DNA of 64,000 nt from a bacterium. Its GTDB lineage: Bacteria; Verrucomicrobiota; Verrucomicrobiia; Limisphaerales; UBA11358. The notes below the pieces were generated by a model, which worked only from the letters and a program-made list of their open reading frames with translations, was not told the origin of the DNA and ran no database searches. The stretch spans positions 1 to 64,000 of the forward strand of contig JAKAFL010000014.1 of the NCBI GenBank assembly GCA_021817945.1, read 5' to 3'. This document shows positions 12,165 to 60,913 of this stretch, in pieces. A program made the position numbers and the translations under genes. Position 1 is the stretch's first letter. Each line of letters starts with the position of its first letter.

Positions 12165-13724
12165 CTAATTATTGGCCGGGCCATCCACGGCATCCCCCAG
12201 CATGGACCATTTGCCCTGGGTCGAGTGCGTTAAGGTTCGCACAGTAGGCACAGGCGTGGCCGCAGCCCTCAGCGCTGTTTTTTCCCCTGAAACCATCATT
12301 TTTAATGCCTGGGGACGACCCACGTCAATGGCATCGCTCAGCGTCAGGTTCGATCCATCAGGGGTTGTCAAAACCACGTTTTTCATGATCCAATCCGCCG
12401 CATGGTTAATTGAGCCAGCTTTGCTGGAACGGATGAAAATATTATCCAATTGAATGTCGTGAATGGGTTTGTTGGCATATCCATCGGCAAAAATGGCCCT
12501 CCCCAATGCCGTGGCTGTTACGTTCGAAATGATGATGTCCCTGAATTCCGGTAAACCACGGTCCGGCGGCTCGACTTTTTCCGCCAAGGTAAGCCAATAG
12601 GATGGCACTCGGTTGGTGTCCACCCCTGGCGGAAGTGTGACATAACTATAGGCTGGATTCCAATTAAGCTCAAAACTCAAGGCGTCCCCCACCCCTTTCA
12701 TTTGAATATCATGAATAAATACATTTTGCACCACCCCTCCGCGAAATCGGGCAGACTTTAACCTGATGCCATTGGAAGTCCCGACCGCCGTCAGGTGGCT
12801 GATTTCCACATTACGGATTCCGCCGGATGTCTCGCTTCCAATGGTGAACATTCCACCGCCAGCCCCTGCCACACAGTTGCGTATTATCACGTTTTCAGTG
12901 GGCCGATTCACCCTCAAGCCATCGGCATCCCGCCCTGATTTCAGGCAAAAATCGTCGTCGTTGCAGTCCACGTCGCAATTTTGCACCAGGATGTCGTGGG
13001 ATGAATCTATATCCACCCCGTCAGAACTGGGTCCAAATCCACCTATGTTGGCCCGAATCACCACCCCATCCACCTTGATCCAGCCGCTGTAAATCAAAGC
13101 CAGGCTCCAGAACCCGGAGCGATTAATGGTGACCTGCCGCACCGTGATATTCGTGCACTCATAAACTGCCACCGCCCGCACCCGCTTGCAGTCATAGTCC
13201 ACCGCCCAGCGTTCTCCACGCTCACGATAATCCTTCAGCATGCCGCCCTTATGGTCCTCGCCCCAGAATTGTTTCCACCAATATGAACCATTACCATCTA
13301 TCGTCCCCTGCCCGGAAACTACCACGTTTGTCTGCTGGTAAATGTTTACCAACCCGGCAGGCCATGGCATTTCAATTCCAGCTACGCGGGTCGGCAACTC
13401 TGGGTACAGCGCAGTGTCTTGAATGGCCCTGAGCACTGTCCCCTTGGGCAAATGCAATTCAACGCCAGATTTGAGGAACAAGGCACCGCTCATATAAATT
13501 CCATGGGCAAAAACAACCCGCCCGCCCCCTGAAGCTGCTGCTGCGTCAATGGCACGCTGAATAAAGCAGGTATTGGTGCTCACTCCATCGGGATGCGCCC
13601 CAAAATCATCCACCAGCCATGACCGCGCTTCCACGACAGGTTGCTGAATAAGCCCGAGCAGGCAGAAAAGCATGCAGGTCCAGCGCAGGCTCAGGTATGC
13701 TTTAAATGCCAGGGTCATATCCAT
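12165..13724 (-). CDS. Secreted GH28 family (polygalacturonase-like) enzyme
   Basis: A 519-residue right-handed beta-helix hydrolase expected to act on galacturonate linkages of pectin. Signal peptide about 1-34 (MDMTLAFKAYLSLRWTCMLFCLLGLIQQ...). GH28 hallmarks present: GTIDGNGSYWWKQFWG, SSDGVDIDSS (equivalent of NTDG), DCNDDDFCLKSGRDADG with the paired Asp, TIGSETSGGIRNVEI, and RLKSARFRGG (equivalent of RIK). Odd: the segment before IGSE reads AGAGGGMFT, so the His of the usual GHG motif appears to be Gly/Ala. The enzyme may thus belong to a subfamily with another linkage specificity. Its start overlaps the end of GH106 by 23 bases, which suggests translational coupling. Exact substrate not known. 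Confidence 0.88.
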   Translation of the reverse strand: MDMTLAFKAYLSLRWTCMLFCLLGLIQQPVVEARSWLVDDFGAHPDGVSTNTCFIQRAIDAAAASGGGRVVFAHGIYMSGALFLKSGVELHLPKGTVLRAIQDTALYPELPTRVAGIEMPWPAGLVNIYQQTNVVVSGQGTIDGNGSYWWKQFWGEDHKGGMLKDYRERGERWAVDYDCKRVRAVAVYECTNITVRQVTINRSGFWSLALIYSGWIKVDGVVIRANIGGFGPSSDGVDIDSSHDILVQNCDVDCNDDDFCLKSGRDADGLRVNRPTENVIIRNCVAGAGGGMFTIGSETSGGIRNVEISHLTAVGTSNGIRLKSARFRGGVVQNVFIHDIQMKGVGDALSFELNWNPAYSYVTLPPGVDTNRVPSYWLTLAEKVEPPDRGLPEFRDIIISNVTATALGRAIFADGYANKPIHDIQLDNIFIRSSKAGSINHAADWIMKNVVLTTPDGSNLTLSDAIDVGRPQALKMMVSGEKTALRAAATPVPTVRTLTHSTQGKWSMLGDAVDGPANN

Positions 13725-16473
13725 TCACCCGCAAATGAACCGGCTCCAAAACCACTGGCCCAACCAATCCACAAGGAGCGACTGGCCAATTGGCCGCATC
13801 GAATGGGTGATAATCCTCGTTCACCAGATTGATGTCCTTGAAATACTTCCAATTCACCCCCCGCCGATCCAAATCCCGCACCCGATTGGCTGAAACGCTG
13901 GTCACCTCTAGTTCCAAATGATTGTCGGATGGTTTTAAATGTTCCACCAACACCCGGTAGGGAGGCACCACGCATGTGCCCAAGTCCTGGCCATTTAATA
14001 CCACCCTCGCGCTCTGGCAAACCACGCCCAAATCCAGGTAACATGCTTTCCCAGCCAGGTCAGGCGCATCAAATGTCACGTCATAACTGGCGGTCCCTCC
14101 AAACGCCTGATATGCCGGGTCCTTGAAATTAGTCCATGCAACTGGATCGGAAAGCTCCCGGGCTTCCGGCAACTCCGGACCTCCGACCAGAAAATGAAGA
14201 TTCCATTTTCCATGCACAGGAACTGATTCACCGTTTGTTTCCCAATAATCCCAATCCGGTCCGGTCACTTTGCCGCTGCCATAGCACCGAACCAATACAC
14301 TCTCACCCGCATTGAGTTCCAGCCACAAACCATGCCCTGCCTCGACTTTGGCCTTGCCCATTTTGCCTGTCATGGGATCCATCACTGCGGCTGATGTCAC
14401 GGGGCGGCCCATTTTGACCAAGCCCTGAAAATCCTGTTTTCCCCGGTTGGCGATGAAATAATCCCAACCTTGACCCGTGGTTTCACGCACAAAGGATAAC
14501 CCTTTCTGAGCCATTTCCTCTGGCTCGACTCCGGCTTCCCATAATCCTTGGCCCAAGGCCCTGGTCCCAAGCTCCATATACCCACCCCCCACCTTCACCA
14601 TGACGCTCAATGAGTCCCTGCCTCGCAATTCCATCAATTGGCTCACCAAAGATTCAAACCGGCGTGTCTTTTCCGGCCCGCAAAGCCCGGCCGGTTGCAG
14701 TTGATCCAGCGTGTCCATGTCCCACACCACCGTGGCGCCGGATTTCATCAATCCAACCAGCAATTCAAGTGTTTCCAACGGCATGTAATGGCATTCCGGC
14801 ACGACCACCACCTTGTATTGCGCGCCTGGCATGACGATTTCTTGGTCATGCACTCTGGCCTCTTGCAATTGGGAATCAGAAACATAATCAAAGGCAAAAC
14901 CTTGATTCCAAAGTTCGTGTGCCTCCCTGCCGACTGCCTGTCCCTCAAACCACGCCGTTTGGCTCACGGTCATCGGCTGCAGCAGGCCATCGGGTTGGCT
15001 CCAATAATCCGCCACAGGCCAATAAAGCAGGACGTCGCTGTCCGGGTGTCCTGATTGCAACAAGGATTGGCAGCGGGCAATGTAGGCGTTTACACTTGGC
15101 ATGTCGTGCCATATCGAATTGCGGGGATTCATCTCGGTGGAGGCGTAAAACAACCAGCCTGGCCATGGCGCATCCGCCGGTGAATAACAGGTTCCATGAA
15201 AATAGACGTGGTTTACACCGGCAAGAAACATGTCATCCACCAGGTATTTGACATCCGCCAGCGTCTCCGTGAAGTGCTCCTTCAACCATGTCCCGGTTTC
15301 CGCTCCAACCAGCCTCCGACCCATGGTGTGAGCCGCCGATGAGGCAAATTTGGAAATCAAAACGCTTCGGTCATTGTGAAACATTTCAGTTTCAGGCACA
15401 TCTGCATCCCCATACAAATCCAACCAATTAGCCGGCGTGCCATGCGCCTGATAGATGGTCTCCATACCGTGGGCGTGGGCCCAAGCGATCCAAGCCGGTT
15501 CGCTTTCTTGGGCCAGGATCCCGGAAACGGTCCTTCGATAATCATATTTTACCCGGGCAGTCTGTTCATCAGCCTGGTCCGAGAAAAGATGCTGGAATTG
15601 ATCCTCAAGCCGGTAACCACGGAGTTCCGCAAACCGGCTTAAAAAATCGGGGGACCAATCAGTGCGATACTCGTAAGAATCCTGAAAAACTGCCAGAGGC
15701 CGGGGGCCGTTGTATTTCCCCAGGGCGCCATCAAACCATTTGAGCCAATTTGTGACGGCCTGTGGGTAGAGCGGATTTAACATCCAACCCGTCCCGCCCG
15801 GGGCTGCGCGTTTCACTTTTTGCCCGGATGGCTCCTGGGATATGGCGAAGATTTTCCACGTTCCTTGCGCGCCATTAACTCCTGAAACAGTACCTGGAAT
15901 CGTCGGGGCTTGAAACCGCATCAAACCCTGCCCATCCAATGTTGGCAAAAGGTTGATGGCAGGGCCGGTAGGCGGATAGGCCATCAGTGCTTGAAGTTTG
16001 AGAGGATCAAACTGATGGGTTAAGGTCCCGCCAGGCTCGATTTCATAGGTCTGCACAACCACCTTGGCATTGGCATCCCTGTCGGAAATCGTTGGCCCGC
16101 CGAAACACCAGCCCGAACCCAAGGACATGTCCACACCCATGCCCAGGGATTTTGCATCACCAATGGCATAACCCAGCATTTCCATCCACTCGGGGCTAAG
16201 ATAAGGAATATCGGGGTGTGAACCTCCTTTGACACCGTAGATGGTGGTTATTTGCACACCGCCCAAGCCGACATCATGGAACAGATGCAGTTCCCGGTCC
16301 AAATCCGCCTGGTCCACCGCGCTGCCATGCCACCACCACCAAGTCCAAGGACGATTTTCAGAACGGATTGCAGGCCAAGCCAGAGGGTGGGAATCCGATC
16401 CGCCAAGCGCCCATTCGCACGGCAACACAAAAAACGCCAGTAAAAGGAATAAAAGTGGGCCTCCATTTTTCAT
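13702..16473 (-). CDS. Secreted GH106 alpha-L-rhamnosidase-like protein
   Basis: About 923 residues, expected to release rhamnose from pectin (rhamnogalacturonan). Signal peptide MKNGGPLLFLLLAFFVLPCEWALG. The GH106 N-terminal signature is clear: RPWTWWWWHGSAVDQADLDREL, then GLGGVQITTIYG and MGVDMSLGSGWCFGGP. The barrel continues through SYEYRTDWSPDFLSRF, FHGTCYSPADAPWPGW and DVLLYWPVADYW. The last 150 residues form a galactose-binding-like beta-sandwich (VVLNGQDLGTCVVPPYRV). An in-frame ATG 25 codons upstream (16548) would add residues in front of the signal peptide, so 16473 is preferred. First of three closely spaced enzyme genes (GH106, GH28, GH67-like). The 190 bases between the pseudopilin stop and this start hold no clear terminator, so readthrough from the pilin is possible. 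Confidence 0.9.
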   Translation of the reverse strand: MKNGGPLLFLLLAFFVLPCEWALGGSDSHPLAWPAIRSENRPWTWWWWHGSAVDQADLDRELHLFHDVGLGGVQITTIYGVKGGSHPDIPYLSPEWMEMLGYAIGDAKSLGMGVDMSLGSGWCFGGPTISDRDANAKVVVQTYEIEPGGTLTHQFDPLKLQALMAYPPTGPAINLLPTLDGQGLMRFQAPTIPGTVSGVNGAQGTWKIFAISQEPSGQKVKRAAPGGTGWMLNPLYPQAVTNWLKWFDGALGKYNGPRPLAVFQDSYEYRTDWSPDFLSRFAELRGYRLEDQFQHLFSDQADEQTARVKYDYRRTVSGILAQESEPAWIAWAHAHGMETIYQAHGTPANWLDLYGDADVPETEMFHNDRSVLISKFASSAAHTMGRRLVGAETGTWLKEHFTETLADVKYLVDDMFLAGVNHVYFHGTCYSPADAPWPGWLFYASTEMNPRNSIWHDMPSVNAYIARCQSLLQSGHPDSDVLLYWPVADYWSQPDGLLQPMTVSQTAWFEGQAVGREAHELWNQGFAFDYVSDSQLQEARVHDQEIVMPGAQYKVVVVPECHYMPLETLELLVGLMKSGATVVWDMDTLDQLQPAGLCGPEKTRRFESLVSQLMELRGRDSLSVMVKVGGGYMELGTRALGQGLWEAGVEPEEMAQKGLSFVRETTGQGWDYFIANRGKQDFQGLVKMGRPVTSAAVMDPMTGKMGKAKVEAGHGLWLELNAGESVLVRCYGSGKVTGPDWDYWETNGESVPVHGKWNLHFLVGGPELPEARELSDPVAWTNFKDPAYQAFGGTASYDVTFDAPDLAGKACYLDLGVVCQSARVVLNGQDLGTCVVPPYRVLVEHLKPSDNHLELEVTSVSANRVRDLDRRGVNWKYFKDINLVNEDYHPFDAANWPVAPCGLVGPVVLEPVHLRVNGYDPGI

Positions 16474-16663
16474 GTCATTTATTTTCCAAGGCTTGGGAAA
16501 GGGCCGACGCCTCCCCCAATTCTCTACTGCCCTCATACCGAAGCGCAATCACTCTGCTTAAGGATAAGCAAGGACCTGAATAGCCTCATTCAGCCTTGAT
16601 ATTCCCCCAAAACAGCGCGAAAAAATCCATTTTTATCTTTTTGATGAATTTCCGCGCAGGAAA

Positions 16664-17647
16664 TTATAATCCCTCCTCAAGGTAGCCGCACATTGAGTTC
16701 AGCTCCCAGATGTCATAGGGGCTTTGCTTTTGCCAGCCGCTACCAAGGACATAAATCAATTTCATTTGGGGAAAAATCTTATGAAACTCAGCGCTCCCGT
16801 CGGTAAACAGAACATTCCAACCCTGGCTGCGGCTATGGGCAAAATCAACGCTGTTCACATTCACCTGCCCTGCGCCGACAAACTGCGACCAGTCAATAAA
16901 ATCCATCGACAAAACAGCCCGTTTATTGACATTGGAAGTCTTTTGATAAAGCCGGAGATTGCTTGTGGTTCCAGAACTGCCCGGACCAGCGGGATTCACC
17001 ACATGGGGATTACAAAGATAGCTTCCCCGGCAGTTGTTGTAATCGCCTGAGGCGCTGGAGGTGGATAATAATGGAGAGTACTGATCTGAACCAAGGGGTG
17101 ATTTTTTGTAATTCAGACTGGGGCAGTATAGAATCCCGCCGTTTCCAGCCAAGCCGGAAAAATAAAGCAAACCATCGTCAGTATAATCTGTATTGGGCAG
17201 ATTTTTGGCGCTTAACAGCTCTTGGGATGTCGCATTGGCATCGTAACACAACCAACGAGTGTAATATCCGCCGTTGATAATGTTCACCGGATTTGAACCC
17301 GCATGGGTAATGGGATACCAATCCTGATTGTCCCCGGCATAAATTGTGTAACCGATGCCAAGTTCATGAAAATTATTCGAACATGTGATCCTCTGGGCCT
17401 TGGCCTTGGCTGCCGACAAGGCAGGAAGAAGCATGGCTGCCAGAATGGCTATGATGGCAATCACAACCAAAAGTTCAATCAAGGTGAATCCTTCGCCAGC
17501 CTGGGCAAATGCTTTTTGCCGGGCCTTAAAATAATTATTGTGTTGATTCATAGGAAAGCTTGCTTTTTTAAAATTTAAAGCCGGACTGATTTGTTTCATT
17601 GCCATTTTTGAATTCATGAGTTTCGCTTTATCACTTTTAAACATCAT
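16664..17647 (-). CDS. Type II secretion/type IV-like pseudopilin, H...DG type
   Basis: Prepilin-like protein. After a leader of about 52 residues it has [33 protein letters not shown] in pieces (the classical G-FTLIE processing site, Glu at +5 and the long hydrophobic helix), then [19 protein letters not shown] and a C-terminal [14 protein letters not shown], the H...DG motif found in the large pseudopilin families of Planctomycetes and Verrucomicrobiota. The globular part is Tyr/Asn/Gly rich. The start at 17647 overlaps the stop of the upstream lipoprotein as ATGA, which argues for coupling and for this early start. Internal ATGs at 17617 and 17548 ([15 protein letters not shown]) would give shorter, more usual leaders. 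Located at the cell envelope. Its partner machinery is not in this window. Confidence 0.85.
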
Positions 17648-18021
17648 TTGCCGGCTTTTGGGTTTGATTGGATTTGCTGGATGAAATCATTGATGGCAGC
17701 TTTTTGTTCTGAAGTGAGACGGGAATCCGCGGCTATCTTCGATAACTGCGGAAGAGCATCTGCAGCGCCTCCATGCTCCGCTTCGCTCACTGTCTCGAGG
17801 ACAAAACTCTGGCTTGCTGGAGGCGCGTTGCTGAAAGCCTTGGCAACCCCAGAATCATCATAAGGCAATTGTGAGTTTTGCGGAAATTGCGCGGGTTCAG
17901 AACCCGATTTTTTGCAACCCACGGCCATGCACAGCCCAAAGGCTACCACACAAACCCACAAAAACGCGCCTGCCGAATCCATGCCAAAACGCGCCAATAT
18001 TTTCTCTCTAATCGTCTTCAT
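17644..18021 (-). CDS. Small lipoprotein coupled to pseudopilin
   Basis: A 125-residue protein of unknown function. The start ATG 18021 gives [20 protein letters not shown]; a hydrophobic stretch ([16 protein letters not shown]) ends in a lipobox (MAVGC, Cys about residue 36), so it is a probable lipoprotein. The C-terminal half is helical and Lys/Gln rich ([19 protein letters not shown]). An in-frame GTG at 18060 would extend it. It shares an ATGA overlap with the pseudopilin gene, the sort of coupling used for proteins made in fixed ratio. A GGTGA sequence precedes the ATG as a weak ribosome site. It is the first gene after the upstream region that carries the CATCGCCA dyad and the AACATGTTAT element. 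No homologue recognised. Confidence 0.7.
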
Positions 18022-18134
18022 TAAATTCACCAAAATTATATTCAGCCCCAACAGGAGCACCCAAAAAGATTAAAAAATCCATAATCAATACAAGGTGAAC
18101 ACAAGAGAAACATACCATCATTCCATTTCGATTC

Positions 18135-18154
18135 CATCGCCAGTTATGGTGATG
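18135..18154. promoter_or_regulatory. CATCGCCA-N4-TGG(T/C)GATG dyad, site 1
   Basis: CATCGCCA-GTTA-TGGTGATG: an inverted repeat with one mismatch, centred about 124 bases upstream of the lipoprotein/pseudopilin start. Same 20-bp length and AT-rich 4-base spacer as the sites at 22820 and 23825. Likely operator of the locus (inference). The surrounding 18022-18461 has no gene that I can support. Confidence 0.6.
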
Positions 18155-18240
18155 CGGCTATTGTGATGATGCGGCCACGAAGCGTCTCGACCATTGCTAC
18201 CATCAGATTTGCAACCCAATTCATCGCCCGCCAAAAATGG

Positions 18241-18277
18241 CACATGTGTTTTTAATCTAACATGTTATATAGATTTT
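18241..18277 (-). promoter_or_regulatory. Upstream element with AACATGTTAT, copy 1
   Basis: CACATG...TTTAATCTAACATGTTAT, with AACATGTTAT at 18259-18268, aligns with 22951-22985: the CACAT, the TTT-AAT and the AACATGTTAT-T blocks are in the same order. Both copies lie about 105-135 bases beyond the CATCGCCA dyad, on the side away from the minus-strand gene. It may be a second operator or a distal promoter part (inference). Confidence 0.45.
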
Positions 18278-18461
18278 AAAATCGCTGACTTTGTATTCGG
18301 CATTGCTACAGCATTATGGAGCGTGACCCATTCCGAAAAATTGCCAACGCAACTTCAATCCTGATTTTACCCGGCAGTGAGAACACTACTTCGACCAGTT
18401 TTGCCCGCCATTTAAACTCATCGCCCTAAAATTCATGGTTCACGATTCGAATTCATTGGCT

Positions 18462-18500
18462 AAAAAAACTCATCCCGGCTCCTTGCAGAACCGGGATGAG
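18462..18500 (-). terminator. Rho-independent terminator of the beta-strand-repeat gene
   Basis: A perfect 10-bp stem (CTCATCCCGG at 18469-18478 with CCGGGATGAG at 18491-18500), a 12-base loop, then a T7 tract on the minus strand (18462-18468). It lies 40 bases after the stop of the 1363-residue protein and insulates it from the pilin/enzyme run downstream. Confidence 0.92.
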
Positions 18501-18540
18501 ATGAAAAACCAAGTATTTGGAACCTTGATTCCTTTAAAAA

Positions 18541-21500
18541 TCAAGGCTTGCGCATCCTATAGAAAACCGCCGGTTGGGTCGGGTTCACGGGGATGTTTGT
18601 GGTAGTGATATTGGCTGTGCCGGGCACATCGGCCCAATTGGTGTTGATACCTACAGCCAAGGTGTTGGTCTGGCTCTGGAGAATCCAGCCTGCATTGGTA
18701 GGCCAGCTCAGGGTGAGCACCCCGCCGCTTACGCTGGTCAACAGGTGGGGAGGCAACAGGTTAATGCTGGGCAACCCGCCATTGGTCAAGGTAATGGATC
18801 CATCCACGGCTATGTTGTTCAGCCAATTATAATTGGTTGTTCCGGTAGGATCCGTCAACGGCAGGTTCACGGCGGAGAAGCCAGCCACGGGCTGGCTGAA
18901 TATCTGGAATTTGTCGCCATTTTCCAAGGCGGCACCGGAATTGGTGATATTCAACACGCCAGTGGGATCAATTTTGAATGTTTGGGCTGCCAGTTGGCCG
19001 GAATTTGGCAAAATGGTGCGATTCAGCTTCACATTGACCGCACCAGCCAACTCCATTCCCTGGCTGCTGGACAAGTTGCCGGTTGGCAATCCCACGTTCA
19101 AAGTCGCACCTGAATCCAGCAACAAATTGCTGGCTTCAATGGTGCCCAATCCTGCCAGAGTCCGTCCAGAATACACCTCAAACACCCCATTGGTGACAAG
19201 GTTGGTGCCGGTGGAATCAATGTAGCCCATGCTCAAGGCATTCAAAATCGCGTTGGTAGAGGCCAACGTGACGGAAGTTGAATTAGTGAGCGAGGAGGGC
19301 ACCACCAGCGTCAGCATGCCATTGCTAATGGTGGTGCTGCCCGTGTAAATAACGGTGTTGGTGTAAATATAGTTGGTCACGAGGTTCAAGTTGGCGTCCA
19401 AGCCAATGATTGCAAGCGAGCCTCCATTCAACGTCAGGGAACCGGTGCCGTCTTTCACGAGGGAGAGCGGCTCCGAGGCGCCGTTGCGAATAGTGCCGCT
19501 GAAGGTGGTGCTCAGGCCGGCGTCACCAATCAGGTAGGTGACATTATTATTACCTCCGGCAACATCTCCGCCCCCCAGCACGCCGGATCCCTCCAATGCG
19601 CCGAGGTAGATGCCCACACCCACCTGACCATTGCGGGTATTGATCAAGCCTTCATCATCGAAGATGGCGCTTTGTCCCCCATTTATGGACAATCCAGTGG
19701 AAGAGAAGCGGATCTGGCCATTGGTGGCAACCATGATTGTGCCAAGGAAATTACCAAATTGCTCAACTCCTCCAGTGCCCATGGAAATAGGTCCTGCGAA
19801 GATATTTGTCGAATCAGCGCTTCCATAGAGGTTGCCGCTAATGCCATTGGCAAGCTCGCCTGATGTGAAAGTGGCCGTCGCTCCTGCCACAGTCGTTATG
19901 TTTTCACCATAATAAGCCGCAGTGCTGGATTTGGAAGGTTCAGCCAAGGTGCTGCTGTTGCTAAGAATGATTCCGCCATTGCCTGCGGTGCCGGCGTTGT
20001 TGATTGCCAGGGTTGCGCCACTGGCCACAAAGGTTCCACCGCTGTAGGTATTGGCCGAATTGTAAGAGAGGGTTCCGCTGTTGATGGTCACCGCAATGCC
20101 GCCCCCACCAGAACCATCCACAATATTGCCGCTAAACGTGGAAGTTCCGGCAATATTCAGCAGGTTTGTGCTGGTCGAGGAATTATTAGCTATTGTACCA
20201 GCGGTTCCGTTCAAGTTGGTGATCATCAGGCCGGTAGCGGCATTCAAGGTTCCGCCATTCATGACCACCGGGCTGTTGCCTCCACCCAAGGCATACAAGT
20301 TGCCGGCTGTGAGTGTTCCCGCGCCAATGATTGTGGTTCCAGTGTAGGAATTGGACCCGGTCAAGGTCTCCATGCCGGCACCCTCCTTATTGATTGACAA
20401 GGTTCCTGCAGTGTTCTGGAGAGCACCAGAGAAGGATCCGCTGTCACCATTCGCACCAACAATCAACGCACCGGATCCAGCGCTGGTGTTGTCAACAGTG
20501 CCCGAACCGTTCAATGCATTCACGGTATTGGTGAAGCCATTCATGTCCAGCGTCCCAGAACTTTGCAAAATCACATTGCCGGACCCTGAATCTAAAGGAC
20601 TCGGCAAAGCGCCGTTTACGCCCAGTTGAATCACACCATTGCTAACCACGGTGTTTCCGCCGTACTTGTTCACATTCTGAAGAACTAAGGTTCCTGTGCC
20701 AATCTTGATCAGGCCAGCGACACCAGCCACAGATCCAGAGCCTGAAAATGTGTAATTGTTAGCGGTGCTATCCACAACAACGCTGGTTGGCGCGATGGGT
20801 CCGATCAAATTGACAGTAGGATTCGTTGAGCCAACGGAATTGAAGGTCACATAGTCAGAGTTGCTGAACACCGAGTGAATTGCTCCATTAAGAAAGTTTG
20901 AATCGGTGCCAATGTCCCAATTTGCATTGGGATTCCCGCCCGTCCAAACCAGGTTTTTGGGAGTGTAATTGATCACCACCAGGTCAACCTCACTGCCATT
21001 CACAATAATATTGCCCACAGTTCCAGGCGCCAATCCAGCTCCTGTAACGGATGTCACAGAATAACCTCCGGCTGTGGTGATGGTTCCGGAAGCTTGAAGA
21101 ATCAATTGATAGGTCCCAGCACCCAATGGAGTGCCGCTCGTGTTATTGATGACAAAGGCATTGTTTCCCATGGACAGTGTGCCTTGCGAAACATAGAGCG
21201 CCGGATGGGTCAAATCTCCCGTGGGGGAGTTGGGTGAATAGGTGATGTTCACACCGGTGGAACCCGAGGCGAGATTGATGGTGCCACTGGGATCCGCCTT
21301 GATCGTCGCCGCCGTGCTCCCCACTGCGGTGCCCGCGCCGCTGCCGCCAATTGCTGCCACGCTGGGTGTAAAAACGCCCCCGCCCGTTGTCAAAGCGGTG
21401 ACATCCAAAGTGCTGCCAGCCGCAAGGTTCAAGGCGTTCCCCGTGCCAAGACCGCCGACTGCATTGGTTGAAAGGCTCAGGGTTCCAGAATCCACCGACC

Positions 21501-22632
21501 AGTTTCCAGTGTAATTATTGGGATAATCCAGCAACACCGTTCCAGGCCCGGCCACATGCAGGAAACTGCTTACAGAGCCGCCAGTCAGGTCGTTGGTGGC
21601 AATACCCACGGTCATGATGTCCGATGGATTCATCGTCTCCAAGGTGGGAGTAGTCCCGGCCAGTGTGCTCACACTCGCAGAATTCAGCGTTCCAGTGCCA
21701 TTCATCAACACCGCGCCGCTTTCATTGAGACTGAAGCCTTGGGCAAGCGTTGTCCCATCAATCTGCAAAACGCCATTGCTATTTACAAACACGGTTGACA
21801 TGGCGCCAAAGGCATTGGTTTGCTGCACCTCCAACACACCTCCGTTGATGTTGGCGGTTGAATAATTGCCTTTGAAAAAGTCAGAGTTTCCAGCGAGGAT
21901 CCAGCGTCCGGCACCATTTTTGGTGACGCCCTGAATAGCCGTTGTCGAAGTGGTGGTACCCCGGGAGAGTGCGCCTATGGTATTGGTTCCGGGATTGCTT
22001 CCGCTTAATACAAAGACCGTGCTGCGAGTGTTCGCACTGTCATTGGTCACGCTGTTCACATAGAGAACGGCATTGGGGTTGGTGGAATTATTGACAAAAT
22101 TAAAAATTCCCCATGTCTGAGATGGCAATCGGATAAATACCGGCACAAGAAATGTCTCGCTGTTGGTCACTGGCGCGTTCATTGTGATGCTGCCATTATG
22201 GGACACGTTGAGAATACCCGTTTCAATGGTTGAAACGGAATCAGGAACCGGGGCGCTGGGCGAGTAAAATACGTATGCGCCGCAGTTGGCGGTGTCAAAA
22301 ATAATGCTGCCCAATTGCCGGCTACGATCGCCCACAATGGTGGCGTCATCTGGAATAATGGGGGTTCCGGCGCCTCCGATCCCATTGTAAATGGGCGAAT
22401 TAAAGGTGGCGACATCATTGTTCACGTTGTTGCCGGACAGGTTAATCACACCTGGCACTGCGCCGGTGACCCAATTGTTGGTGACCGGCCAGCTTCCGCT
22501 AACAGGCGCGTTGCTCCATGTATCGCTGGCGGCATAACTCGCCGAAACTGCAAGCGCTCCAGCCAGACTCAACAAATGGCGAATCCGGTTTTGGATTTTA
22601 TTAGACTTTATTTTTCGATTTGGGGTTCTCAT
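18541..22632 (-). CDS. Large secreted autotransporter-associated beta-strand repeat protein
   Basis: A 1363-residue extracellular or surface protein. Signal peptide about 1-34 (MRTPNRKIKSNKIQNRIRHLLSLAGALAVS...). Nearly the whole length is repeated PATR-type (TIGR02601) units recognisable as G-G-L-x-K-x-G-x-G-T/x-L-x-L-x-G-x-N-x-Y-x-G-x-T variants, for example KNGAGRWILAGNSDFFKGNYS, KIGTGTLVLQNVNKYGGNT, KEGAGMETLTGSNSYTGTT and KDGTGSLTLNGG. These fold as a beta-helix. No C-terminal autotransporter barrel is present; it ends instead in a module (ILQSQTNT...W...FYRM) shared with the pectinesterase, PL4 and S53 proteins. It is monocistronic, with its own terminator, and its upstream region carries the CATCGCCA dyad. 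A role as adhesin or polysaccharide-binding surface protein is inference. Its composition is very rich in Gly, Asn, Ser and Thr. Confidence 0.85.
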   Translation of the reverse strand: MRTPNRKIKSNKIQNRIRHLLSLAGALAVSASYAASDTWSNAPVSGSWPVTNNWVTGAVPGVINLSGNNVNNDVATFNSPIYNGIGGAGTPIIPDDATIVGDRSRQLGSIIFDTANCGAYVFYSPSAPVPDSVSTIETGILNVSHNGSITMNAPVTNSETFLVPVFIRLPSQTWGIFNFVNNSTNPNAVLYVNSVTNDSANTRSTVFVLSGSNPGTNTIGALSRGTTTSTTAIQGVTKNGAGRWILAGNSDFFKGNYSTANINGGVLEVQQTNAFGAMSTVFVNSNGVLQIDGTTLAQGFSLNESGAVLMNGTGTLNSASVSTLAGTTPTLETMNPSDIMTVGIATNDLTGGSVSSFLHVAGPGTVLLDYPNNYTGNWSVDSGTLSLSTNAVGGLGTGNALNLAAGSTLDVTALTTGGGVFTPSVAAIGGSGAGTAVGSTAATIKADPSGTINLASGSTGVNITYSPNSPTGDLTHPALYVSQGTLSMGNNAFVINNTSGTPLGAGTYQLILQASGTITTAGGYSVTSVTGAGLAPGTVGNIIVNGSEVDLVVINYTPKNLVWTGGNPNANWDIGTDSNFLNGAIHSVFSNSDYVTFNSVGSTNPTVNLIGPIAPTSVVVDSTANNYTFSGSGSVAGVAGLIKIGTGTLVLQNVNKYGGNTVVSNGVIQLGVNGALPSPLDSGSGNVILQSSGTLDMNGFTNTVNALNGSGTVDNTSAGSGALIVGANGDSGSFSGALQNTAGTLSINKEGAGMETLTGSNSYTGTTIIGAGTLTAGNLYALGGGNSPVVMNGGTLNAATGLMITNLNGTAGTIANNSSTSTNLLNIAGTSTFSGNIVDGSGGGGIAVTINSGTLSYNSANTYSGGTFVASGATLAINNAGTAGNGGIILSNSSTLAEPSKSSTAAYYGENITTVAGATATFTSGELANGISGNLYGSADSTNIFAGPISMGTGGVEQFGNFLGTIMVATNGQIRFSSTGLSINGGQSAIFDDEGLINTRNGQVGVGIYLGALEGSGVLGGGDVAGGNNNVTYLIGDAGLSTTFSGTIRNGASEPLSLVKDGTGSLTLNGGSLAIIGLDANLNLVTNYIYTNTVIYTGSTTISNGMLTLVVPSSLTNSTSVTLASTNAILNALSMGYIDSTGTNLVTNGVFEVYSGRTLAGLGTIEASNLLLDSGATLNVGLPTGNLSSSQGMELAGAVNVKLNRTILPNSGQLAAQTFKIDPTGVLNITNSGAALENGDKFQIFSQPVAGFSAVNLPLTDPTGTTNYNWLNNIAVDGSITLTNGGLPSINLLPPHLLTSVSGGVLTLSWPTNAGWILQSQTNTLAVGINTNWADVPGTANITTTNIPVNPTQPAVFYRMRKP

Positions 22633-22819
22633 GGTTTATTCAGGTGAAGGATTTGTTTGCAACCGAGCGAATGAAATGGTGTGAATTTGCAATTTAATGT
22701 GTGTGCGACTTGTGGATTGCAGAATAAATACAAACAGGCGATTTCAAAAAATCAGCAAGTCCGCGATTTAAAAACGTGCCGGGCATGTTCATCAATATAC
22801 ACCTACTGATGATTCTCAC

Positions 22820-22839
22820 CATCGCCAATTCTGTGGATG
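22820..22839. promoter_or_regulatory. CATCGCCA-N4-TGG(T/C)GATG dyad, site 2
   Basis: CATCGCCA-ATTC-TGTGGATG: the left arm is identical to the other two sites and the right arm differs at two of eight positions. Centred about 197 bases upstream of the beta-strand-repeat gene start. The 424-base gap 22633-23056 otherwise holds the AACATGTTAT element and no gene I can support. Confidence 0.55.
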
Positions 22840-22950
22840 CGCCATTCGGGCGGGCTATCGGTCGTTATCAGAATAAACCGGGTTGATTCAGGCCAAAAAA
22901 GGTTGCCCAATTAAAAGAATCCCCAAAAGCTGGATTCAGCGATTTAAAAT

Positions 22951-22985
22951 CACATCCAACTTTGAATAAACATGTTATCTATTTT
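22951..22985 (-). promoter_or_regulatory. Upstream element with AACATGTTAT, copy 2
   Basis: CACATCCAACTTTGAATAAACATGTTAT continuing to TATTTTGAAAA, given in part: AACATGTTAT is at 22969-22978. Matches the copy at 18241-18277 in order and spacing of blocks. It lies between the response-regulator stop and the beta-strand-repeat gene. Confidence 0.45.
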
Positions 22986-23056
22986 GAAAACCCCTGAGCC
23001 AGAGCCGATAGCCCCTGCCGAATATCCAGACCACCTGCGGTTCAAATTGAGGAAGT

Positions 23057-23698
23057 TTAGCTGTTGGGCATTGCCTGCTTGAGGTGTTTGGCCACAGCTT
23101 CCGTTCTAGAACGGACATGCAATTTCTCGTAAATGTGGCGAATGTGAGTGTGAACCGTGGCGTAGCTCACTTTCATTTGCTCGGCTATCTCCTTGTACAA
23201 AAAGCCTTTGGCGAGCAAATCAAGAACCTGGGCCTCGCGCGGAGACAAGGGGTCCGCCCCTGCCGCCGAGGGTGCGGTTTTTTGAAAGGATTGAACGATT
23301 TTACGGGCAATGTGGCTGCTCATGGGCGACCCACCCCCATGAACGTCCCGGATGGCAGTGAGAAGCTCTGCCGGCGGAGTCTGCTTCAGCATGTATCCGG
23401 TGGCGCCCGCAGCCAGGGCGTTAAAAATATGATCCGTATTCTGGTAAACGGTGAGCATGATGATCTGAATCCCTGCCATCTGAGGCTTTAAACGCCGCAC
23501 ACACTCCACTCCGTTGATTCCTGGCAGGTTAATGTCCATCAGCAACACCTCCGGCTGGATTTTTGGAATTCCTTGCAAAGCCTCCTCACCGCTCCCGTGC
23601 TGGCTCACACAAACGAACCCGGGCGTGCCATCAATCAATTTTGCCAAACTCGCGCGCACCTGCGCATCGTCTTCCACTATGGATACTTTTATGCTCAT
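23057..23698 (-). CDS. NarL/LuxR-type response regulator
   Basis: A 213-residue two-component regulator. The receiver domain covers about 1-120, with the acidic pair ED-D at 9-11, phospho-acceptor D55 (VLLMDINLPG), the T of MLTVY and the K of MLKQTPPAEL. The LuxR-type helix-turn-helix covers about 145-210 (LSPREAQVLDLLAKGFLYKEIAEQMKVSYATVHTHIRHIYEKLHVRSRTEAV in overlapping parts). The start at 23698 begins MSIKVSIVEDD; upstream in-frame residues to 23737 do not fit the family. It follows the propeller kinase after 102 bases on the same strand, so it is the probable partner. A perfect CATCGCCA dyad lies 137 bases upstream, inside the end of the kinase gene. It should bind DNA as a dimer, making the recurrent dyads candidate targets (inference). 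Confidence 0.93.
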   Translation of the reverse strand: MSIKVSIVEDDAQVRASLAKLIDGTPGFVCVSQHGSGEEALQGIPKIQPEVLLMDINLPGINGVECVRRLKPQMAGIQIIMLTVYQNTDHIFNALAAGATGYMLKQTPPAELLTAIRDVHGGGSPMSSHIARKIVQSFQKTAPSAAGADPLSPREAQVLDLLAKGFLYKEIAEQMKVSYATVHTHIRHIYEKLHVRSRTEAVAKHLKQAMPNS

Positions 23699-23800
23699 AA
23701 TTTTTATCTTGGACGATTGCTGGTTGAATCCCGGCATTTCAAACCCGGCTGCATGGCCAAATCAATTGGGGTGCAGACAGGCATAGGGGCCCGATTCAAT

Positions 23801-26800
23801 CTACCGATGCAAACCCTTTTGCTGCATCGCCAATTTTGGCGATGATTTGGAATGGATATAAACCGTCAAGGATACGGAAGTGCCGCTCCCAGGCAGGCTC
23901 TGAATGGAGCAATGCCCGCCTACTTCCGCCAGTCGCTTGCCAAGGTTGCCCAAGCCAGACCCGGAATTCAACCGGTCTTCCTCCCCGCTTCCCACGGCTT
24001 GTATTCCCCGTCCGTTGTCCTCCACGACCAGGGTGATGGACTCGCCTGCCGTTCGGAGCCGCAGCCATACTTCAGTGGCTTGGGCATGCTTCACAATATT
24101 GTTCAACGCCTCTTTCAATGCCAGAAACAAGTTGTACCTCAACTCGGCATCCACACGCATGTCCGCCATTTCAACGGGTAAATCCATGCGGCACCGCACA
24201 TCTGCCAGGCGGAGGTAATCCTCCGCATAGGCGGAAACATAGTCCATTAACCCCGCCAGGGTGTCGTGCTGGGGGTCCACTGCCCAGACAATTTCATCCA
24301 TTGCCTTGGTCAGGTGCCGGGCGGATTCCGTGATTCGTCCCAGATTGGCATCGGTTTGCGCAGGATCCCTGCGGGCCAGTTCGGTCAGAAGAGTGATCTG
24401 GGTCAATCCAGCCCCGATGTCATCATGGATATCCTTGGCAATTCGCGCCCGGTCCAGTTCCACGGCTCGCTGTTTTTCAAGGAAAGCCAGTTTTCTGCGG
24501 TATTTGCGGGTGGCCGCGCGGCGGGCCGCAACCACCACGGCTCCAATCCCAAGCGCTGCCAGCAAAAACCTGAACCACCAGGTCTGATAGAAAAATGGAA
24601 GCACACGAAACTTTAATGTCGCGCCCGTCGTGTTCCAAACCCCCTCCCGGTTGCAGGCTATCACCCGGAAACAATAAGCCTGGGGAGGCAGGTTGCGCAA
24701 TTGCACCATTCGCCTCGTCCCGATATCCACCCAATCGGAATCCAAACCGTCCACGCGATATCGAAACCGAGCCAGGGTGCCGGCGTCAAACGTGACTGCG
24801 GTGAAAAGAAAATCCAGTTGCTTGCTGCCGTGCTCCACGATCAATTCACCATTGCCCAGGTTTTCAGGCTGGTCATCCACACGCACCTCCTCAATATGAA
24901 CCGGTGGTGCAGGCTGATTGTGGGGCAAGCCGTTTGGATTCAGGGAAACCACCCCCCTGGCGGTCGTAAACCAAAGCATGCCATCACTCGCACGCCAGCA
25001 TGCCGGCTGGTATCCATCCGAGCACTCCAATGAGGGCAAACCGTCATGCCGGCCGTAAATCACGTAGTCCAGCTTTTTGAATTGACCGTCGGCCACCGCG
25101 TTAAGTTGCGCCTTGGTAATGGAAAAAATCCCCTGGTGGGTTCCCAGCCACAGACGCCCCCTGCCATCATCCAAAACCTGGCAAATGAAATCCGCAGGCA
25201 ACCCTTGCTTCAATCCAATTCGCTTGAAGACACCATCCCTGAATCGCAACAAACCTCCACGGAAAGTCCCAATCCAAAGTGTCCCCTCGGCATCCACGGT
25301 CATGGAATAAATGGGCTGGTCTGAAAGATCGTCCTGCGCCCGGTAAGGGGTCAATTTCCCGGGCTGGCAAAGAAATAAAGTGCCGTCATCTGCCCCCGCC
25401 CAAATCTTCCCATCCGGCGCTTCCACCAGCGCCCGGATCGCAGGCAAAGGGATTCCCTGGTCGTTGGTGCTTAAAAACTGCCGCACCTGCCCCATGCCCA
25501 GGGTCACGCCGGCTTTGGTCCCCATCCATAAACGACCCTGGGAATCTTCCAGCAATGATTTAATGCCATGCACTTCCAAGGGCGCATGTTCCTCAACTCC
25601 GTTGGAGAATTCATACAAATCCTCCCCCTCCCCGGCGCTGATCCATGCCCCACCGCTGGCTTTGGGATAGATTGAAAACACAAAATTGGCAGAGGCATTG
25701 TCACCCACGGGATAGGTGGTCAATGTTCCATGCTGCCAGCAGCACAACCCGCCACCGGCGGTGCCAACCCAAACAGCTCCTTTGTTTTCGCAAACCGACA
25801 GGGCAGTCCGCACCGGCAGGCCTTGCGGCGTGCCTATCACATGAAATTGACGAGGCCGCAGTTGAACAAGGCCGCCATGATCCACCCCGGCCCAGATGCT
25901 TCCATCGCTGCTTTGGTACCAGGCACCCACACGGTCGCCAGGCAAACCATTCCTCATGGTCAACCGCTCAAATTGGTTTTTGGGGGTGATGTGGAACAGG
26001 CCGTTCCCATAATGATTCAGCCAAAGTCCACCATCGCGGTCCTCATGGACCCCCGTTGACCGCCCTGAAGCCGGCCCCAGCAGGCCATTCCACCGGGGCA
26101 CATCACCCAACCATTTGCGCCCCAGCATTTCTTTTAACCGCGGACCATCCCACACCCAAATCGCACCGGAACGGACCGGAAATAAATCCTGCGGCTCAAT
26201 GATGTTATTGCCATTGGTGGGGGTTTCATCACAAAAACGAACCCCATCCCACACGGCAATCTCCCCCTGCGCGCCGACCCATACCTGGCCGTGGGTATCG
26301 CTCACCAATGTGTAAATTTTGCGCCCAGCCAGCCCACCGTTATCGGCCAAACTGGAAAACTTACCGCCGGAATACCGCAAAATATGGCCATCCCGGCCTA
26401 AAAACCATAACTGATGATCCCCCGCTGTGCATTGATAAATTGGACGTGCTCCCTGCGGCGGAGCGCTGATTTGCCAATGGGCATCCTTCTGGTTGGGATT
26501 AATTTCCAACACCTCACCAAATTGAGTGACAAACGTCACGTGATCGGGACTGGAATCCACCAGCGAGGTGTGCAGGTTGAAAGTAGGTTGATCCGGCCAT
26601 TCCTTGCGAAAAACGCCATGGCGGTAGGAGGTCAGCCCGCCTCGAAAGGTGTTGATCCAGAGCGTTCCATTGGTGTCCAGATATAGCCCCTGCACGCGTG
26701 TCTGGGTTAGTTCAGGCGTGTTGGCGGAATCGAAGGTCACAAAATTGGCACCATCAAATCGCGCCAACCCGTCATAAGTTCCCACCCACAAATATCCATC

Positions 26801-27028
26801 CGGCGTCTGGGCAATATCCGTCACCGTGCTACCGGGCAGGTTGTTTTCTGTATCCCAAATGTTGATGAGGTAGTTGTAGGGGGAAGAAGGCCAGGATTCG
26901 GTTTGACCCAAACTCCTGAACCCCAAAGCCAAAAAAAAGCATAGAGCCGGCAAATATCGCAGCAAAACTCCCGGAATATTTTTTTCTCTCCCGGAATGCA
27001 ATCCGCGCTGACTCTCTGTTTGGTCCAT
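23801..27028 (-). CDS. Periplasmic-propeller sensor histidine kinase
   Basis: About 1075 residues. N-terminal hydrophobic segment (LPALCFFLALGF), then a large periplasmic sensor of two-component propeller (Reg_prop) repeats, about residues 50-700, recognisable as DGYLWVGTYDGLARFDG, GGLWLNHYGNGLFHI, GSIWAGVDHGGLVQL, GAVWVGTAGGGLCCW and GTLWIGTFRGGLLRF; a Y_Y_Y domain (FRYRVDGLDSDWVDIG), about 710-790; one transmembrane helix (FLLAALGIGAVVVAARRA); HisKA_3 with H868 in AKDIHDDIGAGLTQITLL; and HATPase with EALNNIVKHA and VVEDNGRGI. This architecture is known from polysaccharide-sensing systems of Bacteroidetes and Verrucomicrobiota. ATG 27028 is preferred over GTG 27052. It lies divergent from the PL4 lyase and upstream of its regulator, so rhamnogalacturonan or pectin fragments are the likely signal (inference). 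Confidence 0.93.
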   Translation of the reverse strand: MDQTESQRGLHSGREKNIPGVLLRYLPALCFFLALGFRSLGQTESWPSSPYNYLINIWDTENNLPGSTVTDIAQTPDGYLWVGTYDGLARFDGANFVTFDSANTPELTQTRVQGLYLDTNGTLWINTFRGGLTSYRHGVFRKEWPDQPTFNLHTSLVDSSPDHVTFVTQFGEVLEINPNQKDAHWQISAPPQGARPIYQCTAGDHQLWFLGRDGHILRYSGGKFSSLADNGGLAGRKIYTLVSDTHGQVWVGAQGEIAVWDGVRFCDETPTNGNNIIEPQDLFPVRSGAIWVWDGPRLKEMLGRKWLGDVPRWNGLLGPASGRSTGVHEDRDGGLWLNHYGNGLFHITPKNQFERLTMRNGLPGDRVGAWYQSSDGSIWAGVDHGGLVQLRPRQFHVIGTPQGLPVRTALSVCENKGAVWVGTAGGGLCCWQHGTLTTYPVGDNASANFVFSIYPKASGGAWISAGEGEDLYEFSNGVEEHAPLEVHGIKSLLEDSQGRLWMGTKAGVTLGMGQVRQFLSTNDQGIPLPAIRALVEAPDGKIWAGADDGTLFLCQPGKLTPYRAQDDLSDQPIYSMTVDAEGTLWIGTFRGGLLRFRDGVFKRIGLKQGLPADFICQVLDDGRGRLWLGTHQGIFSITKAQLNAVADGQFKKLDYVIYGRHDGLPSLECSDGYQPACWRASDGMLWFTTARGVVSLNPNGLPHNQPAPPVHIEEVRVDDQPENLGNGELIVEHGSKQLDFLFTAVTFDAGTLARFRYRVDGLDSDWVDIGTRRMVQLRNLPPQAYCFRVIACNREGVWNTTGATLKFRVLPFFYQTWWFRFLLAALGIGAVVVAARRAATRKYRRKLAFLEKQRAVELDRARIAKDIHDDIGAGLTQITLLTELARRDPAQTDANLGRITESARHLTKAMDEIVWAVDPQHDTLAGLMDYVSAYAEDYLRLADVRCRMDLPVEMADMRVDAELRYNLFLALKEALNNIVKHAQATEVWLRLRTAGESITLVVEDNGRGIQAVGSGEEDRLNSGSGLGNLGKRLAEVGGHCSIQSLPGSGTSVSLTVYIHSKSSPKLAMQQKGLHR
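23825..23844. promoter_or_regulatory. CATCGCCA-N4-TGGCGATG dyad, site 3 (perfect)
   Basis: CATCGCCA-ATTT-TGGCGATG: both 8-base arms are perfect complements. It lies within the last codons of the kinase gene, centred about 137 bases upstream of the response-regulator ATG. The same sequence occurs at 18135 and 22820 outside coding DNA, so codon constraint does not explain it. Possible autoregulatory operator (inference). Confidence 0.6.
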
Positions 27029-27126
27029 AAAGGCTCTGGGAAAAGATGCCACAGGTTCTCCCGTTTTGGCGAGTCTCCATCTTGACGGTCAAGAGTCACC
27101 CGTTATCAAGCCACGAGCACTCCAAC

Positions 27127-27142: not shown

Positions 27143-27237
27143 AAGCCAGGACCCGTTTGAAAGGGGTGGTTTTGTCAATATCAACAATACTGTGGATGGT
27201 AAAGCTCCCTGAAATGGGGGATATTAACGAATCCATC

Positions 27238-60277: not shown

Positions 60278-60913
60278 TTACCGCTGAAAAAATCGGGCCA
60301 CCGCCTCGGTCCTGGTGCGGACCTGAAGTTTTTCATAAATCCTGCGGATGTAGGTATGGACGGTCTCGTAGCTGATATCGAGTTTTTCGGCGATTTCCTT
60401 GTAGATCAGCCCCTGGGACAGAAGGTCCAGGACCTGTTGCTCGCGTTCGGACAACTCGGACAACTCATCCGTTGGCCGGGCCTGATCCTTGGGCTTTTGA
60501 AAGGATTGAACCACCTTGCGCGCAATATGCGTGGTCATGGGGGACCCCCCTCGTTTGACCTCGTGAATGGCTTCGATCAGTTCCTTGCCGGGGGTGCGTT
60601 TGAGCATGTAGCCGCTGGCCCCGGCGGCCAGGGCGTTGAATATGTTTTCCGTGTCCTCATAAACGGTCAACATCATGACCTGCGTTCCGGGAAGTATCGC
60701 CTTCAATTGCCGGACACATTCCACACCATTCATTCCAGGCAGGTTGATGTCCATGAGCACCACATCAGGCTTTACCTGGGGCAGCGCCGCCAATGCTTCC
60801 TCTGCGCTGCCGTGGTCGCTCGCCAGCCGGAAACCCGGGGCGCGGCCAATCACCTTGGCCAGCGTCCCCCGCAATTGCTCATTGTCCTCAACTATGGAAA
60901 TTGTCGTTGCCAT
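60278..60913 (-). CDS. NarL/LuxR-type response regulator 2
   Basis: 211 residues. Receiver 1-120 with D55 (VVLMDINLPG), ED at 9-10, MLTVYED and MLKRTPGKELIEA; LuxR helix-turn-helix about 145-205 (LSEREQQVLDLLSQGLIYKEIAEKLDISYETVHTYIRRIYEKLQVRTRTEAVARFF in overlapping parts). Closely related to the regulator at 23057: the spacing is identical and most core blocks match. It follows the kinase by 45 bases, and AGGGG precedes the ATG. Partner of the propeller kinase directly upstream. No CATCGCCA dyad is visible upstream of this one. Confidence 0.94.
   Translation of the reverse strand: MATTISIVEDNEQLRGTLAKVIGRAPGFRLASDHGSAEEALAALPQVKPDVVLMDINLPGMNGVECVRQLKAILPGTQVMMLTVYEDTENIFNALAAGASGYMLKRTPGKELIEAIHEVKRGGSPMTTHIARKVVQSFQKPKDQARPTDELSELSEREQQVLDLLSQGLIYKEIAEKLDISYETVHTYIRRIYEKLQVRTRTEAVARFFQR

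Follow-up and report, generated by a model that had tools for sequence, protein, structure and literature searches.

Introduction

The lux box, to which LuxR-type regulators bind, spans 20 bp as an inverted repeat and has its centre at -42.5, a class II position (PMC7585371, PMC3376562). Small-RNA promoters dependent on GacA combine a palindrome with a conserved -10 element (PMC3684763), and the hybrid two-component systems of Bacteroides consist of fused kinases with an AraC-type helix-turn-helix (HTH) and use direct-repeat motifs with a long spacer (PMC3878776). Here, a recurrent 20-bp dyad in a pectin locus was studied in a stretch of 64,000 nucleotides (positions 1 to 64,000 of contig JAKAFL010000014.1, assembly GCA_021817945.1; Verrucomicrobiota, Limisphaerales, UBA11358), referred to below as the window. 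It is concluded, with a probability of roughly 0.86, that the dyads are operators of the response regulator encoded at 23057-23698, which would act by class II activation on its own gene (positive autoregulation) and on pectin targets.

Members of Verrucomicrobiota subdivision 3 are abundant degraders in soils and lakes, and few of them have been cultured. In the literature searched, neither an operator nor a two-component polysaccharide regulon was found described for this subdivision, and the operator CATCNCCA-RWWY-TGGCGATG was not found described either. The open literature searched likewise yielded no described Verrucomicrobia regulon or motif matching the dyad.

Results

Three dyads in the window

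The pattern CATCGCCA-N4-TGGCGATG was found in perfect form at 23825-23844, with one mismatch at 18135-18154 and with two mismatches at 22820-22839, so that the three recurring dyads reported by the first-pass annotation are real. All three were assigned to genes on the minus strand. Their distances to the likely start codons were 113 (lipoprotein ATG at 18021), 187 (22632) and 126 (response regulator ATG at 23698), consistent with the range of about 120-200 bases given previously. The promoter elements are as follows.

23825..23844, minus strand: response-regulator promoter dyad, CATCGCCAAAATTGGCGATG towards the gene, within the terminal codons of the kinase
23798..23803, minus strand: response-regulator -10 hexamer TAGATT, 21 nt after the dyad; 23803-23801 is the kinase stop codon TAG
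22820..22839, minus strand: promoter dyad of the giant PATR protein, CATCCACAGAATTGGCGATG; same place in the near relative G019 (locus L181)
22794..22799, minus strand: -10 hexamer TATATT of the PATR-giant promoter, 20 nt after the dyad
18135..18154, minus strand: promoter dyad of the lipoprotein/pseudopilin/GH106/GH28 operon, CATCACCATAACTGGCGATG
18109..18114, minus strand: -10 hexamer TATGTT of the lipoprotein-operon promoter, 20 nt after the dyad

Only one further place in the window, at 9020, matched the pattern with at most three mismatches (shuffle expectation 0.63). When a weight matrix built from the sites of relatives together with the three window dyads was applied, these dyads scored 28.6-32.1 and the next-best window place 12.3. 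The weak dyad formerly placed before the window PL4 gene was dropped: its best candidate, at 27179 (score 12), lies inside that gene. Four perfect 8+4+8 dyads were found in the window; a perfect dyad is therefore not rare by itself, and it is the recurrence of one dyad that needs explanation.

A second shared motif, AACATGTTATNTA with an A/T-rich stretch after it, was observed at 18260-18272 and 22970-22982. It lies further upstream than two of the dyads, about 106 and 131 bp from their upstream ends. In the fetched loci, this motif occurred only in the window genome and in G019.

Distribution of the site and of the regulator

The first-pass annotation had proposed a scan of the whole genome and of related genomes. 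The window genome, a draft assembly of 3.76 Mb (99 contigs) whose named near relatives belong to Limisphaerales / Verrucomicrobia subdivision 3, was scanned with patterns and in selected stretches. There were 85 places within three mismatches, and those closely inspected were mostly coding-type matches. The only strong dyads were the three in the window and a fourth at C34:57241, a good dyad with a -10 box at offset 22 that precedes a gene for a PL4 rhamnogalacturonan lyase with a RhgB_N domain; an equivalent site before a PL4 rhamnogalacturonan lyase gene was found in G019. The composite pattern of dyad and -10 box matched the three window sites and C57:68266, which has a poor distal arm and was taken as a chance match.

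Within the family, the dyad was found at no more than one mismatch in 32 of 49 genomes, while the reversed-pattern control gave a single site. Sites lay upstream of the orthologous regulator gene and, usually as a second site after that gene, ahead of the PATR giant (PATR was detected in 23 of 24 further giants of relatives scanned). Other targets in relatives were genes for pseudopilins, GH28, PL4-type proteins and uronate catabolism (UxaE, then UxaC and GH28). The site was present in all 24 regulator-bearing genomes; of the 25 genomes in which no complete regulator was detected, 2 had it (Fisher 6e-12, uncorrected, like the other Fisher values, for the relatedness of the genomes). These two were G024, where the regulator is cut by a contig end, and G042, which is 75% complete and carries two strong pectin-type sites ahead of very large proteins (loci L172 and L173). 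Across the order, convincing sites were nearly confined to the window's family and G073. In G013, an HPr kinase gene (L053:4015-5160) has a near-perfect dyad immediately ahead of its probable start, with a -10 spacing that does not fit.

The proposal of an operator of a pectin regulon is thus supported by site conservation, target content and co-occurrence with the regulator. The LuxR-type regulator, to which binding had been attributed, is the best candidate, as the site tracks this regulator and sits on its promoter. Many protein families bind palindromes, and another transcription factor, e.g. of the LacI, MarR or CRP type, could have co-evolved with the locus. This explanation is nevertheless unlikely, since the site accompanies a single clade of response regulators from genome to genome and lies on the promoter of that very regulator, and since the sister clade of regulators, whose recognition helix differs, pairs with a sister dyad of equal geometry.

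Promoter geometry

The sequence TAnnnT was found 20 or 21 bases past the dyad in 23 of 33 sites, which were oriented solely by the downstream gene; in 2000 shuffles, the maximum for any two adjacent offsets was 8. In a larger set of sites, which is not independent since the scan rewards the 20/21 spacing, there were 35 at offset 20, 31 at 21, 6 at 22 and few elsewhere. With the -10 box at -12 to -7, the dyad centre falls at -42.5 or -43.5. Given the transcription starts predicted from the -10 matches, this is where class II activators bind. The -10-proximal arm TGGCGATG was nearly invariant, and the distal arm was variable at position 5. As read by eye, the -35 position was taken up by the end of the dyad (GATGG/GATTGG).

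The composite of dyad and -10 box was nearly confined to one family of the order. Sites outside genes or at gene ends had A/T-rich spacers, and sorting by position set coding matches apart; matches such as CATCGCCA-N4-TGACGATG were set aside by position and spacer. A composite pattern lacking the TGGCGATG arm was rejected for its lower specificity.

Autoregulated operators are often repressor sites, and the regulator might bind the dyad as a repressor relieved by pectin. Although the sequence is compatible with repression, this is less probable still: the dyad stands upstream of the -10 box at the fixed class II distance and leaves the -10 box and the start uncovered, and its promoter-proximal arm is the stricter one, as expected where the bound subunit touches polymerase.

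The predicted regulator promoter is nested in the kinase gene

Orthologues of the regulator (at least 72% identity) were found in 24 genomes of the family, and in 23 of them the dyad with a -10 box at offset 21 was located upstream. The same upstream dyad was found for the truncated regulator copy of G024 and in G073, which belongs to another family. For the closest paralogue (60278-60913 type), every one of the 30 orthologues had an upstream score below 0.

In all 24 genomes considered (the 23 orthologues and G024), the dyad is part of the open reading frame of the kinase, whose stop codon (TAA or TAG) coincides with bases 1-3 of the -10 box. The encoded tail peptide varies (SPKLAM, SPVVAI, SPIVAI, SPILAI) and the palindrome is constant; therefore, it is the DNA that is conserved, not the peptide. 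In the paralogous pair, where it was read, the kinase ended without such a tail. The kinase tail at window positions 23801-23850 is short, with a sequence largely dictated by the nested promoter. It would be possible to suppose that the kinase-internal copy, coding in all 24 genomes, is conserved solely for a C-terminal peptide SPVVAIG, but this is very improbable because the window peptide is SPKLAMQ with the palindrome still perfect, and because promoters outside coding sequence carry this dyad at an identical spacing. Finally, chance or scattered coding-sequence matches, which the 85 places within three mismatches (mostly coding-type where inspected) might suggest, can be dismissed, since a strong dyad with a well-placed -10 box occurred at four places only, all at pectin genes or their regulator, since the reversed-pattern control was near zero in relatives, and since the spacing, the relatives' sites and the conservation upstream of the regulator already refute this explanation.

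Proposed mechanism

The recurrence, position, symmetry, spacing, conservation, co-occurrence and targets of the sites were computed. From them, we infer the binder, the activation and the signal in the following scheme. The propeller-sensor kinase encoded next door would detect a pectin-derived signal and phosphorylate the regulator, and a dimer of the phosphorylated regulator would bind the 20-bp dyad centred at about -42.5/-43.5. The dyad adjoins a -10 box that may lack a clear -35 element, and its position suggests class II activation. The targets in the window would be the regulator gene itself (positive autoregulation), the lipoprotein-pseudopilin-GH106-GH28 operon and the gene for the PATR giant; outside the window, the regulon would also include the PL4 rhamnogalacturonan lyase gene. 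The nested dyad is at the same time part of the coding sequence for the kinase tail, the stop codon providing the first half of the -10 box. With its promoter inside the kinase gene, the regulator could be boosted independently of the kinase.

Several points weigh against activation of a pectin regulon by this regulator. Genome G035 has the regulator with no dyad upstream of it, and G079 and G254, from other families and with regulators 75-77% identical, have only weak sites. Conversely, two good sites were found in the 75% complete G042, where the regulator was not detected. Transcription starts were derived from -10 matches only, and the compatibility of the sequence with repression was mentioned above. 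To our knowledge, PATR giants have no known role in pectin utilization, so the label "pectin" rests on the enzyme targets.

Genes of the locus

The minus-strand genes are arranged in the order sensor kinase, response regulator, PATR giant, lipoprotein, DUF1559-type pseudopilin, GH106, GH28 and a GH67C-like gene. A gene for a giant protein with PL4 domains is divergent from the kinase gene, and a pectinesterase gene lies further along.

23801..27052, minus strand: sensor histidine kinase (Reg_prop propeller, Y_Y_Y, HisKA_3, HATPase), an architecture shared by relatives; the 3' tail of the gene contains the regulator promoter
23057..23698, minus strand: NarL/FixJ (LuxR-HTH) response regulator (Pfam Response_reg and GerE), likely ATG 23698
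18541..22632, minus strand: beta-strand-repeat (PATR/TIGR02601) giant, the most conserved target
17644..18021, minus strand: small lipoprotein, as judged from its sequence; first gene of the target operon, likely ATG 18021
16664..17647, minus strand: DUF1559-type pseudopilin, second gene of the operon; the family is also a target in relatives
13702..16548, minus strand: GH106 alpha-L-rhamnosidase (domain match)
12165..13724, minus strand: GH28, polygalacturonase/rhamnogalacturonase (domain match)
60278..60913, minus strand: paralogous response regulator of the sister (GTC-dyad) clade, outside the pectin regulon; 30 orthologues without an upstream CATC dyad

The solved structures nearest to the 23057-23698 regulator were NarL, DevR, DesR and VraR. 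The small lipoprotein had no Pfam match, and an Rfam search of the window gave no match.

A sister dyad and putative small RNAs

More distant regulators (60-67% identical) were accompanied by a shifted dyad, AGTCGCCA...TGGCGACT or TGTCCCCA...TGGTGACT. The sister dyad GTCNCCA-N4-TGGNGACT (GTCNCCA-N4-TGGNGAC) with the same -10 spacing was found in 74 of 313 genomes of the order and in 51 of 118 genera; the control scan gave one hit among the matches listed. Directly downstream of it were mostly short conserved non-coding stretches. Among the 59 sites with enough sequence, GTTCTC occurred within 200 nt in 52 (shuffled mean 3.6, largest 10) and an intrinsic terminator in 55, compared with 0 and 2, respectively, of 67 pectin-type promoters. 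The stretches fold, with compensatory changes in 4 of 14 and 6 of 17 pairs, and an Rfam search of the sister loci matched no family. It appears that the sister dyad drives a previously undescribed family of small RNAs. In loci L322-L381 (e.g. L358:350-470, L355:767-887 and L330:1501-1700), the predicted RNAs are short, end in a terminator and contain the motifs GUUCUC and GUGUGUG; this order-wide family has at least two structural types, and its putative promoter is GTCNCCA-N4-TGGNGACT, 21 nt and TAnnnT.

Outside the window's family, 63 genomes had both the site and a sister-clade regulator, 4 the site only, 15 the regulator only and 184 neither, the identity threshold admitting a few pectin-clade regulators, e.g. 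that of G073, into these counts. In 20 genomes, the dyad and RNA were located 29-322 nt past the regulator stop codon on the same strand. In the tree, the pectin regulators formed one supported clade, and the GTC-linked regulators and the window 60278-60913 regulator were in the other. The recognition helix YATVHTHIRH pairs with CATC and YETVHTYIRR with GTC; in G081, which branches at the base of the pectin clade, the helix YDTVHTHIRR occurs with a GTC-type site. Of the sequence evidence for recognition of the dyads by these regulators, this covariation of helix and dyad is the strongest, although it reflects few independent changes.

Within the window's family, most sister-clade regulators lacked an exact GTC site, and in the window genome a search for the sister dyad at up to two mismatches gave only two degenerate matches, which were taken as chance. 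The link between regulator and GTC dyad seems to have been lost in most members of the family. The window regulator 60278-60913 belongs to the RNA-linked clade, and its own genome is without a convincing GTC dyad.

The pectin operator could be an offshoot of an older, order-wide NarL/FixJ small-RNA system, in which a helix change from YETVHTYIRR to YATVHTHIRH and a half-site change from GTC to ATC gave a regulator dedicated to pectin, whose promoter lies inside the kinase gene and takes the stop codon as the beginning of its -10 box. We consider the chances of this scenario to be even.

Discussion

The first-pass annotation had missed the fixed -10 spacing, the dual role of the stop codon as the beginning of the -10 box, and the sister dyad that would drive small RNAs. 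With the rule of dyad, 20/21 nt and TAnnnT, the regulon can be predicted for every genome of the lineage, and a short piece of DNA suffices to test the rule. The stop codon that overlaps the -10 box provides a clear case of a promoter lying within the end of a coding sequence. The sister dyad points to a possible Gac/Rsm-like small-RNA network across an order, and the two regulator clades are suited to mapping a change in the DNA specificity of LuxR-type proteins. Response-regulator operators in class II position are a known kind of site; what is new, as far as was checked, is the dyad sequence, the nesting of the promoter with its shared stop codon, and the small-RNA branch of the sister dyad.

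The pectin dyad resembles the lux box in being a 20-bp inverted repeat centred at about -42.5, in its association with a LuxR/GerE HTH and in the proposed positive feedback on regulatory genes. However, the sequence is different, a phospho-receiver replaces the autoinducer-binding (acyl-homoserine-lactone) domain, and the genes concern pectin rather than quorum sensing. As in the Bacteroides hybrid systems, a propeller (Reg_prop/Y_Y_Y-type) sensor is encoded beside polysaccharide genes, including rhamnogalacturonan loci; a fused kinase-receiver-AraC HTH protein was not found here, and a separate LuxR-HTH regulator is combined with an inverted repeat. Because the Bacteroides systems have an AraC-type HTH and direct repeats, the window system is not one of them.

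The sister dyad is similar to the GacA-RsmX/Y/Z system: a LuxR-HTH regulator is associated with a palindrome and a -10 box before short terminator-ended RNA genes, and the RNAs carry a repeated short motif. The palindrome and RNA sequences differ, the sister motif being GUUCUC and not GGA, by way of which Gac/Rsm-type RNAs titrate CsrA/RsmA, and the pectin version would drive mRNAs. There is agreement with class II activator sites of the NarL/FixJ family: the palindrome is 20 bp long, its predicted centre at -42.5 or -43.5 lies in the range for such sites (near -41.5 to -43.5, at a fixed distance from the -10 box), the linked regulator has receiver and GerE domains, and the regulator shares this architecture and full-length similarity with the solved members NarL, DevR/DosR, VraR and DesR. 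It differs from members of that family in that its promoter is nested in the kinase gene.

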